DNA from: Desulforhabdus amnigena
GTDB taxonomy: Bacteria > Desulfobacterota > Syntrophobacteria > Syntrophobacterales > Syntrophobacteraceae
Direction of reading: 5' to 3'
Assembly (NCBI RefSeq): GCF_027925305.1
Contig: NZ_BSDR01000001.1
Location: forward strand, 3,676,501 to 3,740,500
Length of the DNA stretch: 64,000 nucleotides
The number at the start of each line of letters is the position of its first letter. The stretch's first letter is position 1. Below, one piece after another: positions 23,196 to 35,880 of the stretch. Under the pieces are notes generated by a model. It did no database searches and had not been told where the DNA came from. It saw nothing but the letters and a program-made list of their open reading frames with translations. Both the position numbers and the translations under genes were made by a program.

Positions 23196-23685
23196 TCCAC
23201 CTTCCCATTATGATTCTGGTCCGTGAAACCGTCAGGCAGTCCTGTGCCGCGCCGGAAGAGGAGGGAATGTAAAAACTTGCAAGGTTCCTGCTAAAGCCTC
23301 TTCCATTAAATTCCAGCCTGTTGGTTGCATTGTTTGTGGTGGTGATTGAATATTTTGAAGCTACGGTTTCAATGAACTCGTCCGTTCCGGATGCATCGTC
23401 GATGTCCCCGTCCGGCGCTGTCCCTGATGCCGAATCTCCATCTTCTTTCAGGATGTAGCTGGTGAAAGTACTGGAACCTCCCCACCATATTCCGCAGACT
23501 ACTTTGTCACTGTAAGCTTTCATTCTGGTATATTGCAGGTCATTGTAAAGTTTTGATATTTGCCCTTCTGCACTCTGCTTTTTATTCCATGTGGAAAAGG
23601 CTGGGATGCCGAAAGTAATCACGAGGGCAAAAATCGCGAGAACGACCATGGCTTCGATGAGAGAAAACCCGTTATACTTTTTCAT
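23170..23685 (-). CDS. fimT: GspH/FimT-like minor pilin
   Basis: 171 residues. Leader MKKYNG followed by FSLIEAMVVLAIFALVITFG (Glu5 present). The globular domain is of GspH/FimT type (about 35-165) with Cys residues near IWW and at QDCLTV and TNCIPK. The ATG lies inside the pilY1 stop (ATGA overlap), and its own 3' end overlaps pilV by 26 nt. FimT-type pilins are minor pilus components, some linked to DNA uptake; that role here is not shown. Confidence 0.85.
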   Translation of the reverse strand: MKKYNGFSLIEAMVVLAIFALVITFGIPAFSTWNKKQSAEGQISKLYNDLQYTRMKAYSDKVVCGIWWGGSSTFTSYILKEDGDSASGTAPDGDIDDASGTDEFIETVASKYSITTTNNATNRLEFNGRGFSRNLASFYIPSSSGAAQDCLTVSRTRIIMGRWNGTNCIPK

Positions 23686-26600
23686 TTTTCGATCCAATGC
23701 AAAATTTTCCCCGTTTTCAATGAAAAAGGAGGCACCAGGGGAGGGGCGCTTTCGGGCGGAATTCCAGGGATCCATTCCGAGGTCTTCCCGGTCGCATCGG
23801 TGTCTTTTGTTTTTCCGCAGGTGAATGACGAATTGGAAGGATCGGCGCTGATCTTGGTGATCGCTCCGGTGGATGTCTGCAGGTAGATCGCTCCGTCCGT
23901 ATTCCTTACGACATATAAGGGACAGGTTTCGTCGGCGATCGCTTCCCCCGTCGCGCAGTTCAGCCCCCAGATCCTGGACCGGCCTCCGAAGCTGCACGGA
24001 TCGGATGTCGGTTCCGTCGTGGTGAAGTAGACAATGTCTTGGCTTGACACAGTGGGATCCGTGATGCACCGCTCCTTGTAGTAGCCTGTGTCCACCGGTA
24101 TCTCCAACGGCCAGTTCCATGCCATTTGTTGCGCCTTTTTGCTGAGGCTTTCGCAGAATGTGCTGCTTGCGTGTCCGAAATTGATCGTAGAGCAATCTGT
24201 GTCATTGGCGGTACAAAGGAATGGGATTCCATAGATCGAATTCGACTGGTTGTGATCCGGGTTGTCATCCTTGATGAAGTATCTTCCAGTGCCGAAATAA
24301 ACATACCACTGGTTGAAGCACTTCATGGCCTCAACCTTGGCCGTAATGGGCTGCCCTGCGTTATAGAACGGTTCCTTAAATTCCCAGCTTCGGGGCTCCG
24401 GAGTCGTGTCTGTCGTATCGTGATCCCCTGTCCAGAGTTTTATGATGCCTCCGCTGAATGCACCGATAGTTTCTTTTTGATCACCGTCACTGTATCCAAA
24501 GAGCACAAAATCGGTATACCCATCTTCATTTATATCCAAACCGTTGGTGAAAAGCCTTCCTCCAAAGGCGTATTTTGTGTTCGTTCCGAACGTATGAACG
24601 TACAGGCCGTTGGAGGGAAGCTTCAGCTGGTCGTCCAGGGAGAGGATGAAGGCCTTCAGGGTCTGGTTCGAGGTGCCATTCCTCGACGTTGGGCCTGAAA
24701 GAAACATCACGAAGTATTTTTCTGCCAGGTTTCCGGAAGCGGATTTGACCTTTCTGTGGATCACCGCGGGACCCGAATAGCTGTAGCCAAGCTGTGGATG
24801 GCTGAACTCCCACAGCAGTTGCGGCGATTCCGCGTCCGTGATGTCGAGTGCGAAATAGGATGAGAGCCCCACACAATTGCTTGGATTGAAACACGAATCC
24901 CAACTGGTGCAGGATATCGCGGAACAGGTGTCTGAAGGGGCGTCACACGGGATGCCCGTGAGCTGACTCGCATCGCAAGTTCCCCCTCCCAGCCGCATTC
25001 CGCCGATCAGAACCCTCTTGTTTCCCATGGTGACGATGTGGGGAGAAAGGTCCACGTAACTCAAATGGCAGTAGTCGGAATTTGCGAGACACCTTAAATA
25101 GGGAAGGATATTTTTGGGAATGAATGCCCAGAGTTCCTTGCCAAACTCCGTTCCTTCGAGCTTTGCCGCCTGTTTGTCCGACAGCCCGGATTTATTCTTA
25201 CTCAGTATCCCTGTCTTGAAGGCATGCAGCATGCCGTCATTGGCTCCTACAAAGACGACGCTTTCCTTTTTCTTGCATGTTCCAGATGTTCCACACTGTG
25301 TATCCGTTGTGCAGAGAGTGCTGGTGAATTGCTGAGCTGTGCTGTCGTAGCAGTATTTATAATCGCTTTCAACCTTGGGAGTGGAATAGACAATGTCTCC
25401 GAGCTTCCAGGTATAGGTATTTGTGGTGCTTCCTTCCTGGATGGAAAAGCTTCTGTTTCGGCATTCCGCGATGTCGGTGCCGCGTACATAGTCGACAAGA
25501 TTGGCGAGAGTCGCGTTATCATCGGCTCCTTTGAGGCAACCGGCAAAGGAACCGGGAGCGCCCAAATAAGTTTTAAAGTCATCAAGGTTGGCGGCTTTGA
25601 ATTCAACGAGCTGATTTGAAGAGCTTACCGTATAGATTTTTCTGGGATCCGGGGGAGGGGGATCCGAGTCACTATCCAACCCCGAACGCCTGGAAAGCAG
25701 CTCTCCAGCCTCCCAGATAGCGGCAACCTCATCCAGGGTGATGGGATCACCCACTGTTGCATCCTCCGTGAGATTTCCGTCTCCATTGAGATCTTGCCAT
25801 CGTTGTATTAAAAGTTGACTCTTCGCTGTATCGAAATCGAATGTCAGGCCGTAGTCGGCATCGAGATCCAGGATATTGTTCTGCTCGGTATCTTCCCTCA
25901 GATTGGATTCGGTTTTCGATACATAAAACCAGTAATCGTAGAGATACCCCGTCCAGTTCAACCAGTTGTTCGAATCGCCATATTTCTTGGAGGGATAGAA
26001 CACGGCCTGCATCATGTTGGCCCCCTGTTGGGCCTTTTCGGAAAGGATGGATACGGAGGTTCCCGAAGAAGTTTGTGAAAGTATGTTACTGAAAATGGTG
26101 CTCAGTGCATCTATCAGTTTGCCGGGATCATCGGCATAATATGCATGCCCGTTGACGGCGGTGCCTCCGTGGACAGCCATGGTGTCGAGCTGGCTTTTTG
26201 CCGAGTCGGAGAGCCCGACTCCCAGAACATATGTTCTAACATCGAAAGAATAGGTTACCCTATTGTTGTCGACGGCAAAGGGCTTGGTAATGGTGGTGCG
26301 AAGACTGTCCAATTTTTCCAATACGGTGGGCATAAGTGTAACGGCATTGCCGGTTCTGCCGGATTCATCGACGCTGGGCAATCCATCCGTGACGTAGATG
26401 ATGTAATTCTTCTGGCATCTTGCCTGGATAGGACTGTTTGTTTCATCTTTGAAATAATCGAGGGCCGTCTGCAATGTGCCCGCCGTCGGGGTGAGGCCCG
26501 CATTGATGATGTACGAGCACGTGTTTTTGTCGGATGCCGTGCAAAACATGTAAGCGGCCTGGACGTCTGCTTCATTGGCCGTTTCGACATCCGCCGTGGG

Positions 26601-27875
26601 ACCGAGCTTTTCCAATAACGAAGAGTAATTCGTCGTCGTGGTGGTTATGCCGTCGACTATCTCATTCAGCTCACCGACCGGGACGTGCAGGAATCCCCCC
26701 CCCGGCGAACTGTTGGAATACCAGGTTTCACCCACATAGTACCAGGGGATGCGCCTTCCAAAGTCGTGATATCCAAGAGCATAATCCGAATCGGTAGGTC
26801 CGAGCGACACAGGAGCAAGACCATCGGAGTAGCCTGTGGAACCATCGTCTATCCCCACTTTAGTAAGATATGGAATATATGTGTCTCCCCCTTCGTCAGG
26901 ATTATAATTCTCTGAGTAAAAAAAACCGGTTCCCTGGTTCTTTACATCATAGTAAGGATAAGCCTGTTTAACATAAATGTAATTCAAACGGTCCGTGGGA
27001 TTGGGGATGCGCTGCGCCTTCGGGTATACCAGGCTGCAATATCTGTTTCTTCGTTCGCTGTCTGTACTATAGTTGGTTATGATCTCGTCGAAATAATCGG
27101 GATCGAAGAGTTCATTGCCTTTTTTGCATCCGTCCACGCAAGCCGCTTGCTTCGCACTGTCTCCTGTCTGGCAATACTCTACGCATTCTGCCGGTGGATT
27201 GGGGCAGTAGGATTTCGGATTGTATGAAGCAAAATAAGCCGCATTGTGAAGATACCGCTTTTCAACATCGTCCTTCAATTTGTAGGTCATCAACCCTATT
27301 CTCAATTTGTCTTTGAGTTGCGTCACGAATTCTTTCAAAGCCAATCTTGCAACCAGTGACTTACCGGCAAAGGAGTAGGACCCAACCGCTCCTCCCCAGA
27401 AGTTTTCATCCATGCTGTTAGAGTTATCCAATATGATCAAAACGTTGGGCTTTATGTCGCTGCTCGCGAAGGGAGGAGAGTTGCACTGGCAGCTTATGGA
27501 GAATGTGCCGCTTGTGCTGCTGACATCATAAACATTGCTAATGATTTTAATTTTATAGTTATTTCCTGTCGACTGGTTTGATAAGATCGGCCAAATGTAC
27601 GATCCCGTTCCATCACTTCCGGTAGAAGCGGCGCTGCTTATGGTTTGAACTGGAGTGGTCCCGTCAAAAAGTTTGATCGTTACGGTTTCTCCGGGACCAA
27701 CATTCTTGTACTCCCATTGAATGGTCTGAGATGTACCTGCAAGTAAGCTTTCCCCGCCTTGAGGGGAAAGGATTTTGATGGTAGCGGATTTAGAGGGCTT
27801 TGTGGCCCAAGCCACTTTTGCAAAGCACGGAGCCAGGAAAACAATAGTCATGAGACCGATCAGGCTTCTTTTCAT
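23682..27875 (-). CDS. pilY1: PilY1-like pilus tip adhesin / assembly factor
   Basis: 1397 residues with a signal peptide (about 1-24, ending AWA). Residues 32-128 look like a Ser-Thr-rich Kre9/KNH-type beta domain (IKILSPQGGESLLAGTSQTI), unusual before a PilY1 core. A von Willebrand A domain follows with an intact MIDAS DxSxS (Asp150, Ser152, Ser154) and LIILDNSNSMDE. The C-terminal half is the PilY1 beta-propeller (VFVGANDGMLHAFKTG). Candidate Ca-binding loops are DLNGDGNLTED and DINEDGYTDF. Many Cys pairs suggest disulfides. First large gene of the cluster; its stop overlaps fimT. Expected role: pilus biogenesis, retraction control and surface adhesion. Confidence 0.92.
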   Translation of the reverse strand: MKRSLIGLMTIVFLAPCFAKVAWATKPSKSATIKILSPQGGESLLAGTSQTIQWEYKNVGPGETVTIKLFDGTTPVQTISSAASTGSDGTGSYIWPILSNQSTGNNYKIKIISNVYDVSSTSGTFSISCQCNSPPFASSDIKPNVLIILDNSNSMDENFWGGAVGSYSFAGKSLVARLALKEFVTQLKDKLRIGLMTYKLKDDVEKRYLHNAAYFASYNPKSYCPNPPAECVEYCQTGDSAKQAACVDGCKKGNELFDPDYFDEIITNYSTDSERRNRYCSLVYPKAQRIPNPTDRLNYIYVKQAYPYYDVKNQGTGFFYSENYNPDEGGDTYIPYLTKVGIDDGSTGYSDGLAPVSLGPTDSDYALGYHDFGRRIPWYYVGETWYSNSSPGGGFLHVPVGELNEIVDGITTTTTNYSSLLEKLGPTADVETANEADVQAAYMFCTASDKNTCSYIINAGLTPTAGTLQTALDYFKDETNSPIQARCQKNYIIYVTDGLPSVDESGRTGNAVTLMPTVLEKLDSLRTTITKPFAVDNNRVTYSFDVRTYVLGVGLSDSAKSQLDTMAVHGGTAVNGHAYYADDPGKLIDALSTIFSNILSQTSSGTSVSILSEKAQQGANMMQAVFYPSKKYGDSNNWLNWTGYLYDYWFYVSKTESNLREDTEQNNILDLDADYGLTFDFDTAKSQLLIQRWQDLNGDGNLTEDATVGDPITLDEVAAIWEAGELLSRRSGLDSDSDPPPPDPRKIYTVSSSNQLVEFKAANLDDFKTYLGAPGSFAGCLKGADDNATLANLVDYVRGTDIAECRNRSFSIQEGSTTNTYTWKLGDIVYSTPKVESDYKYCYDSTAQQFTSTLCTTDTQCGTSGTCKKKESVVFVGANDGMLHAFKTGILSKNKSGLSDKQAAKLEGTEFGKELWAFIPKNILPYLRCLANSDYCHLSYVDLSPHIVTMGNKRVLIGGMRLGGGTCDASQLTGIPCDAPSDTCSAISCTSWDSCFNPSNCVGLSSYFALDITDAESPQLLWEFSHPQLGYSYSGPAVIHRKVKSASGNLAEKYFVMFLSGPTSRNGTSNQTLKAFILSLDDQLKLPSNGLYVHTFGTNTKYAFGGRLFTNGLDINEDGYTDFVLFGYSDGDQKETIGAFSGGIIKLWTGDHDTTDTTPEPRSWEFKEPFYNAGQPITAKVEAMKCFNQWYVYFGTGRYFIKDDNPDHNQSNSIYGIPFLCTANDTDCSTINFGHASSTFCESLSKKAQQMAWNWPLEIPVDTGYYKERCITDPTVSSQDIVYFTTTEPTSDPCSFGGRSRIWGLNCATGEAIADETCPLYVVRNTDGAIYLQTSTGAITKISADPSNSSFTCGKTKDTDATGKTSEWIPGIPPESAPPLVPPFSLKTGKILHWIEK

Positions 27876-28498: not shown

Positions 28499-28972
28499 TC
28501 AATCGAACAGCCATTTGTAAACGGAAAATTTCAAGGCATCTTCATTCAAGACCTTGGGAGTTTGTGTACTGGCGCTGATGATCAATTTATCCGTTTGTGC
28601 ATAGGAGTAGATTTTTCTCGTACTGGCGATTCTGTAATGGGTGGTGCTCGCGTTTTCTATGAAAAACGAATAGTATTTCAACTTGTGTGTGGTTTGAGTA
28701 CAGGCGCTGCAGGAAGCCAGACAGGCAGGGTTTGAGTTGAAGGAGGGCAGGCAGCCGATCGTTCCGGCATATCGGTTGTTGTCCAAAAGGAATTCTTCCA
28801 TCTCTATCCGGGCTGTCAACAGTTGACTTGCCGCTTCACTCTGTTTTACCCGGTTGATGTGGTTGATGTAGGCAGGGACGGCGACGGAAGCCAATATGGC
28901 CGTAATGGCAACGACGACCATGAGTTCCACCAGAGTGAATCCCTCCGTTGAAAATGTGTGACATTTTTTCAT
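28499..28972 (-). CDS. Type IV pilin, PilA/PilE-like
   Basis: 157 residues. Leader MKKCHTFSTEG then FTLVELMVVVAITAILASVA with Glu5 and the canonical N-terminal alpha helix. The C-terminal domain (about 60-157) has four clustered Cys (IGCLPSF, ACLASCSACTQ), more than the usual disulfide pair. Size fits a PilE-type minor pilin or short major pilin. No SD as strong as its neighbours. It lies 247 nt upstream of the rest of the cluster on the same strand, so it may have its own promoter. Confidence 0.88.
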   Translation of the reverse strand: MKKCHTFSTEGFTLVELMVVVAITAILASVAVPAYINHINRVKQSEAASQLLTARIEMEEFLLDNNRYAGTIGCLPSFNSNPACLASCSACTQTTHKLKYYSFFIENASTTHYRIASTRKIYSYAQTDKLIISASTQTPKVLNEDALKFSVYKWLFD

Positions 28973-29862
28973 GGGTAACCTCAGCTGTATGGATTTGCGC
29001 CCGTCTTTTTGTTTATTTGATCTGCCTGTTGCCCCTCTCCCCGTCTTCCTCGGAAAGCTCTCTCACAGATAACCGCATCACAGAGTGTGTTGCTCAGGTA
29101 TGACGTCTTCCGTGTGCGTCCCAAAAATCAGATAATAGGTTTTTGTAATTTTCATGGCCGGTTGTATGGGCTCGATGCCGCCAAATCCGTTTGAAAATCC
29201 GGATCTGTAGCTTCTTGATGGAAAAGATGCCTTTGGAATGATTGCGGGGGGCCAGGAAGAACGTATCGTGGTCGGGCCTCCCCGGCGTGCCTGTCGAAGC
29301 GGTTTGCTTTGCGATGCACATCCCTGAAGGCGCTCCATTCGCCCGGCAACCCCGCTGCCATATCCTGTGAGGATTTAGGCCAGAAGCTTTGCGCCCCAGC
29401 CTTTCGACTGGTTTGCCATTTTCAAACGAACGATATTTTCGAGGTGCTTTCCTTTAAACCACGGAGATACGGAGAACATGGAGATTTCAGTTGGAAAGTC
29501 TTTCTTCGTGTCTCCGTGGCTAATGTGACAATGTCGCATTAGTATTAAGAGCCTATCCAAAAACCTACCTCGGCAGCGGACACCCCCCTTTAATTCCCCC
29601 CTCAAGGGGGGACCAAGGGGGGTGTCGCAAAGTCCACAGGTGGTTTCTGGATAGGTTCTAAAGCAATATTTGTGCCTTCCTTTCTGTTCCATTCGATGAC
29701 GGAAAGGGACCGATTTTCGGTAAGGCTATGGTGACCGAAATTCTTTCGTATCAAAGTACTTGCATTACGAATGGACATGTCCGGTGGGAGTTCTTATATA
29801 AATAAAAGGTTTTCGTTAAGAAGATGGGGGATAGGCATATTTCAACTGTGCAGGAGGGTATC
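28973..29862. other. Gene-poor stretch with C1 and M1 repeats
   Basis: About 890 nt. Overlapping minus-strand frames at 29078-29361 show no recognised family and no SD; they may be debris. A C1 element lies at 29457-29522 and M1 copy 1 at 29547-29661. Confidence 0.5.
29547..29661. repeat. M1 element, copy 1
   Basis: 115 bp. Left end TTAAGAGCCTATCC, right end GGATAGGTTCTAA, with CTACCTCGGCAGCGG and CGCAAAGTCCACAGG arms and a CCCCCCTCAAGGGGGG core. Same structure as copies at 30563, 42492 and 48902. Confidence 0.85.
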
Positions 29863-33363: not shown

Positions 33364-35421
33364 ATGGCCAATCGTCTCAGTCAGGAAAAGAGTCCCTATT
33401 TATTGCAGCATGCCGACAATCCCGTGGACTGGTATCCGTGGGGAGAAGAGGCTTTCAAAAAAGCCAAAGAGGAGGACAAGCCCGTTTTCCTCTCCATCGG
33501 GTACGCCACATGCCACTGGTGCCACGTCATGGAACATGAATCCTTCGAAGACATGGAGGTGGCGAAGCTTCTCAATGAAAATGCGGTTTGCATCAAGGTG
33601 GACCGGGAAGAACGCCCCGATGTGGACCAGATTTATATGACTGTCTGTCAGGCCCTGACCGGCAGCGGCGGGTGGCCCCTTTCCGTTTTCATGACCCCCG
33701 ACCGGAAGCCCTTTTTTGCCGGCACCTATTTTCCAAAATCGGGGCGGATGGGAATGCCCGGTTTTATGGACATCATCGCACAGGTGGCCGGTCTTTGGAA
33801 AAAGGACCGGCAGCGGCTGTTGAGGGTGAGCGATGAGATCACCAACGCCATTCAACCGAGGAAGCCCACAGGGCAGGGGCCGGCTCTCGATGCCGAAACC
33901 CTGGACAATGCCCACCGCCATTTCAGCAGGTCTTTCGATCACACGTGGGGCGGTTTCGGAGCGGCTCCCAAATTTCCCACCCCCCATCACTTGACTTTCC
34001 TTCTACGCCAGCACAAGCGTGACCCTCAGTCGGAAGCCCTCGATATCGTGGAAAAAACTCTGGACGCCATGCGGGACGGCGGTATTTTCGACCAGGTGGG
34101 ATTCGGGTTTCACCGGTATTCCGTGGATGAAAAATGGCTCGTGCCCCACTTCGAAAAGATGCTCTACGACCAGGCGCTGCTTGCCATGGCCTACACGGAA
34201 GCGTTTCAGGCCGGCGGAAAAGCGAGATTCGCACAGGTGGCCCGCGAAATATTCGAATATGTGCTCCGGGATATGACGGACTCGAAAGGCGGTTTCTATT
34301 CGGCGGAAGATGCCGACAGCGAGGGAAGAGAAGGGCTTTTTTATGTCTGGACGCCTCAAGAAGTGAAGGACATTCTCGGGGCGGAAGCGGGCGATGTCTT
34401 TTGCCGCTTTTATGACATTACCCCCGAGGGGAATTTTGAAGAGAGTCTGAGTATCCCTCACATTTCCAGGTCAGTGGAGCTGATGGCTCCGGGCTTCGGG
34501 ATGGAAGCCGAAGAGCTGGAAAAGCTCCTGGAAAAGGGCAGGCTGAAGCTGTTCGCCGTGCGTGAAAAACGGGTGCATCCCTTCAAAGACGACAAGGTCC
34601 TCACGGCCTGGAACGGGCTCATGATCGCTGCCTTGGCCAAAGGGTACCAGGTCCTGCGCGATCCCGCCTACCTCGATGCGGCTTGCGCCGCGGCCCGTTT
34701 CATTCTGAACACCCTGCGCCGGGAGGGGGGAAGGCTTTTCCGGCGCTATCGCCACGGAGAGGTGGCTCACCGGGGATATGCGGACGACCATGCCTTCCTG
34801 GTATGGGGGCTTCTGGAGCTCTACGAATCCACATTCGATGCGTTCTACCTGGAAGAGGCCGTAAAGGTCCATCAGCAGATGATGGATCTTTTCTGGGATG
34901 AGGAAGAGGGCGGTTTCTTCTACACCGCCGAGGACAATGAGCCGCTCATCGTCCGGGACAAGGAGATTTATGACGCCGCCGTGCCGTCCAGCAATTCGGT
35001 GGGGGTCTTGAACCTCCTTCGACTGGCGCGTATGACGGGAAATACGCAGTGGGAAGAAAAGGCCCAACAGCTCTTCAATAGATTTGCAGGGATGGTCGCG
35101 GATTTTCCCGCGGGGTACACTCAGTTTCTCCATGCCGTGGATTTCGCCCTGGGGCCGGCCCTGGAAATCATCGTGGCTGGAAATCCCGAAGAAGTTTCGA
35201 CACAGGAAATGGTGGAAACCGTTCATGGCTTGTTCCTTCCCCATCGCGTTTTGATGCTGCGGTCCGAAGATGGCCGGAGTGGAGGGATCGAGGAGCTGGC
35301 GCCCTTTGTGAAACCGCTCAAAAGCATCGACGGCAAGCCCATGGCTTATGTCTGCCAGAACTTTGCGTGTAAAGAACCGGTCACAGAGGTGGACGCGTTG
35401 AAAGCGATCCTGGCGCAATAA
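33364..35421 (+). CDS. DUF255 thioredoxin-like / glycoside-hydrolase-like protein (YyaL, SPATA20 family)
   Basis: 685 residues, full length. The N-terminal thioredoxin-fold DUF255 domain has [20 protein letters not shown], then WYPWGEEAF and the [14 protein letters not shown] motif, with CxxC-like CHWC near residue 48. It is followed by [20 protein letters not shown]. The rest is an (alpha/alpha)-barrel resembling N-acylglucosamine epimerases ([32 protein letters not shown]). Biochemical role unproven in the family. The ATG at 33364 has AAAGGGAG upstream and gives the family N terminus; the ATG at 33331 would add 11 residues. The stop overlaps a C1 element. Confidence 0.92.
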
Positions 35422-35553
35422 CCACAGAGGCACGGTGGACACAGAGTGAAGAGCTGATCCTGTCTGCCGCGGAGGTGGCAGACAGGATTCTCCATGCCGA
35501 CTCCCGGCATGGAGAATAGTTGCTTTTCTCCGTGCCCTCCGTGCCTCCGTGGT
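35421..35553. repeat. Large C1 element
   Basis: About 130 bp, with CCACAGAGG/CCTCCGTGG ends and internal palindromes CTGTCTGCCGCGG and ATTCTCCATGCCG. Nearly identical in inverted orientation to 56148-56272. Confidence 0.8.
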
Positions 35554-35652
35554 TTATATGAAAAAAAGGCTCATGGTTCATAGCTCATGGCGGGAATCCA
35601 TAAATCCGCCGAAGAACACCCTGGGGATGGCGGGATTGGCGGTTTTTTGTGG

Positions 35653-35695
35653 CGCAATTATGTCGTTATTTTTGGATTTGACGCGATTATGTCGT
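35653..35695 (+). promoter_or_regulatory. Paired enhancer-type sites upstream of the sigma-54 promoter
   Basis: CGCAATTATGTCGT and CGCGATTATGTCGT (29 bp apart, 13 of 14 identical) lie 89-131 bp before the -24 element. This is where bacterial enhancer-binding proteins bind. An AT-rich stretch (35730-35775) between them and the promoter could allow bending. Confidence 0.55.
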
Positions 35696-35782
35696 GAATT
35701 GAGGGCGCCAGGTGTATGAATTCAGAACCGTTATTTTTTAAAAACAATGTAAATACAATATGATAATGAATATGATTGGAGT

Positions 35783-35798
35783 TGGCATCCTTGTTGCA
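35783..35798 (+). promoter_or_regulatory. Sigma-54 (RpoN) promoter
   Basis: TGGCAT-N5-TTGCA with exactly 10 nt between GG (35784-35785) and GC (35796-35797), an almost perfect match to the -24/-12 consensus. Predicted start at about 35809. Confidence 0.8.
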
Positions 35799-35808
35799 AA
35801 ATAGAAAA

Positions 35809-35879
35809 GCAAAAGAGAAATCAACTCTTTCCTCCTCGAAAAGCTAACCGGTTCTAGCCCCTCCGGTTAGCTTTTTTTT
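35809..35879 (+). ncRNA. Candidate sigma-54-dependent small RNA (about 71 nt) with anti-SD motif
   Basis: Between the sigma-54 start and a strong terminator there is no ORF. The RNA folds as a short hairpin (AAAGAG 35812-35817 with CTCTTT 35825-35830), a single-stranded CCUCCUCG (35831-35838) and the terminator hairpin. CCUCC between stems is a typical seed of trans-acting RNAs that cover Shine-Dalgarno sequences. It could instead be an attenuated leader for the gene at 36052, but that gene has its own SD and lies past the terminator. Confidence 0.65.
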
Positions 35880-35880
35880 A
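35841..35880 (+). terminator. Rho-independent terminator of the small RNA
   Basis: 11-bp perfect stem AAGCTAACCGG / CCGGTTAGCTT with an 11-nt loop, running into eight T. Confidence 0.92.

Follow-up and report, generated by a model that had tools for sequence, protein, structure and literature searches.

Introduction

The Qrr1-5 RNAs of Vibrio have a sigma-54 promoter, several paralogues, a single-stranded pairing segment between structures, and a terminator. The CCUCCUCCC 'cuckoo' RNAs of alphaproteobacteria are short repeated hairpin RNAs with stress promoters. To our knowledge, small RNAs have been little studied in sulfate-reducing and syntrophic bacteria. In Salmonella, omp mRNAs are targets of the sigma-E RNAs RybB and MicA (PMC1804206), and in Vibrio, VrrA base-pairs with ompA in its 5' region (PMC2628432). 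The 84-nt RNA NcS25 of Burkholderia cenocepacia is complementary to a 7-nt stretch in the Shine-Dalgarno (SD) sequence of a porin, which is repressed, and no motif of sigma-54 type was detected before ncS25 (PMC10117139). In Desulfovibrio vulgaris, non-coding RNAs have been assigned to the sigma-54 regulators DVU0653, DVU0679, DVU1419, and DVU2359; for one sigma-54-linked RNA, of unknown function, expression was confirmed by tiling array (PMC4641369, PMC3333781).

Here, we analyzed a stretch of 64,000 nucleotides from Desulforhabdus amnigena (the window), in which a first-pass annotation had proposed a sigma-54-dependent small RNA with an exposed anti-SD segment. Comparative evidence (conservation, promoter boxes, and a pattern recurring across the phylum) supports this proposal. 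The locus is likely a sigma-54-controlled gene for a trans-acting small RNA that silences a porin mRNA by pairing at its translation start.

Results

Promoter, predicted RNA, and terminator

Analysis of the plus strand revealed a near-consensus sigma-54 -24/-12 promoter, TGGCAT-N5-TTGCA with the correct spacing, at 35783..35798 (TGGCATCCTTGTTGCA), which bears out the near-perfect promoter of the first-pass annotation. With the RNA start placed by inference approximately 11-12 nt downstream of the -12 GC, the predicted small RNA is approximately 72 nt long and occupies 35808..35879 (+), as judged from conservation, fold, and the terminator T run taken as its end. The RNA is presumably transcribed, and by sigma-54. 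Its core CUCUUUCCUCCUC (35825..35837, +) is complementary to the porin SD region and is common, with few changes, to all three RNA classes described below. The core is followed by the extension GAAAAGCU (35838..35845, +), which runs into the terminator stem and is complementary to AGCUUUUU, a stretch preceding the porin SD. The intrinsic terminator (35839..35879, +) consists of a perfect inverted repeat (arms 35839-35851 and 35863-35875), an 11-nt loop (UUCUAGCCCCU, with a conserved GCCCC), and a T run; the stem had rightly been noted as perfect, but its arms give it 13 bp rather than 11 bp.

The minimum free energy of the RNA is -23.8 kcal/mol, compared with -11.0 kcal/mol (sd 2.7) for shuffled sequences (z -4.75, single-sequence fold). 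In this fold the CCUCCUC stretch is unpaired, and CCUCC is conserved among the homologues, in agreement with the exposed segment that had been claimed. The short 5' hairpin of the earlier description also appears in the single-sequence fold but is absent from the alignment consensus, and is thus unsupported as a feature of the family. The promoter and terminator, both present and conserved, predict a free-standing short transcription unit.

Putative enhancer array

Sites of the TGGCGYGATT type lie upstream of the promoter on the plus strand. The two direct sites 29 bp apart that had been reported are found, with starts at 35650 (TGGCGCAATT, 35650..35659) and 35679 (TGACGCGATT, 35679..35688, one mismatch), but these putative enhancer sites are part of a longer phased array. 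The array also includes an exact putative site, TGGCGGGATT, at 35628..35637, with similar sites recurring upstream of homologues, and perhaps a possible site with one mismatch, TGGCGGGAAT, at 35588..35597. A looser form of the motif, derived from the same 47 loci in which it was counted, gave 87 sense-strand sites against 7 on the opposite strand, which served as the control. At least one site was present in 42/47 loci and at least two in 30/47; L067 and L081, which have no exact sigma-54 box, were left out of this count, and L003 duplicates L001. Many spacings fall at 11, 20-22, 30-32, and 41 bp, near multiples of the helical turn, and together with the sense-strand bias they fit binding of an activator along a single face of the helix.

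A strict two-site array pattern matched 37 times in 22 of the 39 order genomes (control, 0), and 35 of the 37 are positioned immediately before, and read in the same direction as, one of these RNA genes. Because the strict array stands almost only before these RNA genes in the home order, it suggests an activator that may be used there almost only for small RNAs. Among the RNA loci scanned, the motifs GAFTGA, ES[EQ]LFG, and GE[ST]GTGKE gave no credible match to an activator gene. The two strict matches unaccompanied by one of these RNAs are G003:C72 and G002:C170. In the latter (L158), the array stands approximately 225 bp from a sigma-54 box that reads the other way, toward a gene resembling a NiFe-hydrogenase small subunit (by eye); a single-domain response regulator, also named by eye, is nearby.

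Conservation of the RNA in the order and beyond

A plain DNA search found the element in 36/59 genomes, the window genome included, all from one order. A covariance model built from 31 loci extended this to 37/39 genomes of the order, again including the window genome, with 1 to 6 copies each, and to 40/55 genomes of the class. The window genome contains four copies, at 3712305, 896810, 2171388, and 4135624 (the last with E 0.001). The matches fetched were a subset, comprising 31 loci in the first set and then 40 chosen lower-scoring ones. The first-pass annotation had named a covariance search in relatives as a check and the loss of both the -24/-12 boxes and the CCUCC segment there as evidence against a regulatory RNA; since these boxes and the CCUCC segment, along with the terminator, are what the homologues conserve, conservation does not speak against it. 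In the first alignment, 5/10 pairs of the terminator stem are changed on both sides.

At E <= 0.01, the model matched 49/395 genomes of the phylum, 14 of them from the home order, and the weakest of these matches may be chance. An exact sigma-54 box is present in 14 of the 20 distant loci fetched, most of which end in a terminator of unrelated sequence (by eye); two TGGCGYGATT-type sites were found in none of the 20. The pattern TGGCA-N6-TTGC followed by CTCTTTCCTCC gave 30 matches in 23/395 phylum genomes, compared with 0 for the reversed-pattern control. A pattern scan of stretches bearing organism names returned 44 stretches: 14 Syntrophobacteraceae, 11 'Deltaproteobacteria', 4 'Desulfobacteraceae', 4 'Desulfarculales', 3 Desulfoferrobacter, 3 Desulfacinum, 2 'Syntrophobacterales', 2 Desulforhabdus, and 1 'Desulfohalobiaceae'. 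The match in the 'Desulfohalobiaceae' contig (L133) was taken as chance because it has no sigma-54 box within reach.

Three genomes from other families of the same class carry diverged copies with sigma-54 boxes. Upstream of the RNA, L292 (G043) has five TGGCCGGATT and L293 (G039) has three TGGCGCGATT, each 11 bp apart, and no enhancer-type site was found upstream of the third copy. The site variants in L292 suggest that the activator in G043 may have a variant specificity.

No Rfam 15 covariance model (4227 families) matched the RNA at the gathering cut-off, and the only bacterial small RNA below threshold was PrrF (16.4 bits of 90, E 1.6). Among the open-access papers listed in a literature search, no description of this RNA was found; PMC12316311 mentions neither sRNA, small RNA, Desulfobacterota, nor Syntrophobacter, and the passages considered from the papers on RybB/MicA, NcS25, and the D. 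vulgaris RNAs do not describe the RNA.

Three RNA classes

The homologues fall into three classes. Class 1 (the window RNA) and class 2 carry the sigma-54 boxes TGG[CT]A-N6-TTGC, which are present in 31/31 order loci of the first set; in a second, non-class-3 set they are exact in 17/19 loci, with one locus showing one mismatch and one lacking them. The 21 class 3 loci fetched are without sigma-54 boxes and instead have TTGAC-N7-GTTATNAT (within two substitutions) before a GGAAAG hairpin. They comprise L064 (G000:C1:2171388) and 20 others (L073-L079, L090-L102). The bipartite class 3 element stands just before the RNA, and its spacer is far too short for sigma-70. Across all 60 aligned sequences CUUUCCUCCU is invariant, and the full core shows few changes. 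Inspection by eye indicated that the terminator loops of classes 1 and 2 keep GCCCC, and that a second CCUCC occurs in 20/21 class 3 loops, being absent from L064 of the window genome. A combined model of all classes was set aside, as it yielded no consensus pairs.

Predicted pairing with porin leaders

The complement of the core followed by a start codon, GGAGGARAGAGATG, gave 38 matches in the 39 genomes (control, 3). Among 30 fetched matches, 14 begin one porin family, as checked against a homology search; the porin leaders are homologous, and the common motif therefore does not represent 14 independent events. By protein homology the porin was found in 30/39 genomes, and the query had no match in the other 9, seven of which belong to one genus (g7) with a strongly conserved RNA. 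The family is related to DESULF_POR1: NCBIfam NF033939 aligned to the G011 homologue over residues 1-325 with 101.1 bits (E 5.7e-29) against a cut-off of 250, so that the porin name rests on a match below the cut-off, by which the family is not a member. The porin query matched no Pfam family and no PDB sequence.

In the window's family, porin leaders vary around GUUAGCUUUUGAGGAGGAAAGAG-AUG, which is complementary to the core plus the first arm of the terminator, although a good ribosome site by itself accounts for part of this match. Among 113 leaders, that of the window genome's own porin, which was identified through homology, gives the strongest predicted duplex (-37.3 kcal/mol, compared with a mean of -18.9, sd 5.8), a ranking that includes three leaders added by motif (L241, L260, and L230). 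Many of the compared loci had been fetched for their core-like sequence, a bias that counts against a high rank of the porin. With G-U pairs allowed, this leader shows 18 nt of continuous pairing, whereas none of 107 other leaders in the same genome exceeds 12. The longest runs on the same basis are 28 nt in G011, 22 in G009, and 21 in G006 and G003, and those of the other 15 genomes paired are 10-15 nt. Counting only Watson-Crick pairs, the pairing extends up to 21 bases, into the terminator stem. In 9/15 family leaders (by eye), such as L277, L279, L286, and L287, a second GGAAAGAG precedes the porin SD by approximately 30 nt, and as the complement of CUCUUUCC in the RNA it is a possible second site.

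Comparison of cognate and shuffled RNA-leader pairs gave 0/5000 shuffles as good over 19 genomes, and within the family a value of 0.036 over 12 genomes, which is marginal; both are uncorrected for kinship. For this comparison 28 porin leaders were read, a class 1 RNA was at hand for 20, and G014 was left out of the 19-genome shuffle. Joint changes of RNA and leader are seen in G029 and G031 (CCCUUUCC with GGAAAGGG) and in G009, where AGACUAA (AAAGACUAA) goes with UUAGUUUUU. The co-variation is partial: the core-adjacent stretch is mismatched in G005, G019, G021, and G024, where pairing is uninterrupted for 13-14 nt. The porin leader motif is retained in G036 and G032, though no RNA copy was found there. 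The leader fetched from G014 pairs poorly, that of G001 has only a 10-nt run, and another porin fragment in G014 starts just behind GAGGAGGAAAGA. The complementarity between RNA and mRNA is conserved and co-varies, marginally within the family and with these counter-examples. This outer-membrane porin family is the best-supported predicted target.

Other candidate targets

Three of the 30 fetched GGAGGARAGAGATG matches begin an alanine-rich small lipoprotein. The lipoprotein of the window genome resembles Lpp/OprI below the cut-off, and its leader, picked by its motif, shows a 19-nt run with the RNA. In 61 genomes of the order of G373, the pattern GGAGGAAAGAG-N0-3-ATG gave 85 matches, compared with 15 for the control, and two of the 85 are the reverse strand of RNA genes. 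Judged by eye, approximately ten of 29 such matches fetched start barrel-like outer-membrane proteins, and one starts an Lpp-like lipoprotein. Genes of exported appearance make up 23/28 hits in the home order and 16/24 in the order of G373, compared with 10/107 other genes of the window genome; the significance of these counts is overstated, because some of the hits are homologous to one another and the rule can err (L335). Export was judged by our own simple signal-peptide rule, and proteins shorter than 60 aa were left out (28/30 and 24/29 kept). Less surely than the porin, other exported or outer-membrane proteins may be further targets. In a separate observation, L177 (G036:C130) has an LpxC-like gene (by eye) whose GAGGAGGAAAGA ribosome site lies behind TGGCATGGCAATTGC, a possible sign of sigma-54 control of lipid A synthesis; no RNA copy was found in G036.

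Neighboring genes

Upstream of the array, on the plus strand, is a DUF255/thioredoxin-domain gene (PF03190, 33331..35421), a synteny marker, and downstream is an FMN reductase gene (PF03358, 36052..36915, +, start chosen by eye), separated from the RNA end by approximately 170 nt. The DUF255 gene is upstream in 15/29 class 1 loci. Between this gene and the array, the segment 35420-35554 has 32-nt arms (35420-35451 and 35523-35554, 81 percent) enclosing two perfect hairpins of 12-13 bp, and looks like a repeat element. Elsewhere in the window, a c-di-GMP-I riboswitch lies on the minus strand at 29342-29427 (80.7 bits); the next minus-strand frames of at least 130 aa are type IV prepilin-like (28499-28972) and PilY1-like (23682-27875), both named by eye.

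Alternative explanations

The downstream reductase raises the question of whether transcription from the sigma-54 promoter begins an FMN-reductase operon, with the RNA as its cis-acting leader, the terminator as a regulated attenuator, and CCUCC serving only that switch. An FMN reductase homologue follows in the same direction in 16/29 class 1 loci, and 10 of the 16 show a gap of 9-43 nt between the T run and the beginning of the match, which leaves little room for another promoter. In the other 13/29 loci there is no reductase match, though some of these loci are short, and the class 2 copy of the window genome faces a convergent gene. It is the core that is conserved, and an attenuator would leave the fit to the porin leader unexplained. 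In the short-gap loci, the reductase is likely also expressed from this promoter by read-through, which would be compatible with a role in trans; as the sole role of the RNA, attenuation of FMN reductase was judged unlikely. The minus strand was also considered, since GAGGAGGAAAGAG-UUG there resembles a ribosome site and start codon, and in the window it opens a frame of 28 aa, as though a small protein were encoded behind GAGGAGG. The UUG frames of homologues have 8, 17, 24, 38, 49, or 53 aa, several copies have none, and any likeness between the frames is confined to the first few residues, where they overlap the conserved RNA. Both the sigma-54 box and the terminator are also oriented the opposite way. 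With neither frame length nor sequence conserved, we rejected this protein, to which we give almost no credence.

A further explanation concerns the range of targets. The first-pass annotation had expected many genes with GAGGAGG-type SDs to be targets; the anti-SD character of the RNA stands, while the primary target indicated by extended complementarity, and by some co-variation, is one porin family. A broadly acting RNA would compete with 16S rRNA at purine-rich ribosome sites and damp many genes, with the porin as one strong site. The core resembles the 16S anti-SD sequence, GGAGGAAAGAG-N0-3-ATG stands before varied genes in other orders, and the gene for HU has a GAGGAGGAAAGA site in the window genome, G024, G026, and G028. 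However, porin pairing in the home family exceeds the SD on both sides, and the fetched hits are rich in exported proteins by our own heuristic, although they are not independent. We regard such broad competition as improbable, and retain silencing of the porin mRNA in trans as the preferred explanation.

Discussion

The promoter, array, terminator, conservation, paralogues, complementarity, and some co-variation of this RNA are computed observations. In the mechanism that we propose, a sigma-54 activator would bind the TGGCGYGATT array and, on the activator's signal, the RNA of approximately 72 nt would be transcribed and end at its own terminator. The exposed CUCUUUCCUCCUC and the 5' arm of the terminator stem would then pair with the translation start region of the porin mRNA, from upstream of the SD to just before the start codon, so that ribosome binding would be blocked and porin synthesis would fall. 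We infer the production of the RNA, the activator and signal as drawn here, and repression by pairing. The family has no Rfam 15 match; both its promoter class and its target are predicted, and its pairing can be tested.

A wider proposal, possible but rather doubtful, is that Desulfobacterota possess an old circuit for envelope homeostasis, in which sigma-54 activators would use a family of anti-ribosome-site RNAs to govern the composition of the outer membrane. The activators of the home order would be devoted almost only to small-RNA genes, a parallel RNA class would use a different promoter, and the RNA and porin leader would co-evolve. None of the 20 distant copies fetched was found to be preceded by the TGGCGYGATT array, which leaves one common activator unsupported. 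If the circuit exists, sigma-54 does in these bacteria what sigma-E with RybB, MicA, and MicL does in enteric bacteria.

Among described systems, the window RNA resembles Qrr1-5 in its sigma-54 promoter, paralogues, free pairing segment, and terminator, but its predicted targets are envelope genes and, unlike Qrr1-5, it has no Rfam match. With the CCUCCUCCC cuckoo RNAs it shares an exposed CCUCC anti-SD segment between stems, whereas it matches no Rfam family at the gathering score. The D. vulgaris RNAs are likewise sigma-54-linked in a sulfate reducer; three of the four are near their regulator gene, whereas none was seen nearby by motif in the scanned loci of the window RNA family. In comparison with NcS25, the window RNA belongs to another lineage and has longer pairing. 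As with RybB, MicA, and VrrA, an RNA under an alternative sigma factor is predicted to lower an outer-membrane protein mRNA or its translation. In contrast to these three, the window RNA has sigma-54 boxes, an enhancer array, and no Rfam match, and its pairing reaches 21 Watson-Crick bases and enters the terminator stem; the place expected for its promoter is occupied by the sigma-54 boxes rather than by a sigma-E promoter. The window RNA is thus probably an analogue of the sigma-E-dependent porin-repressing RNAs, but under sigma-54, and if so, signal-controlled porin silencing arose under a sigma factor other than the well-known sigma-E.
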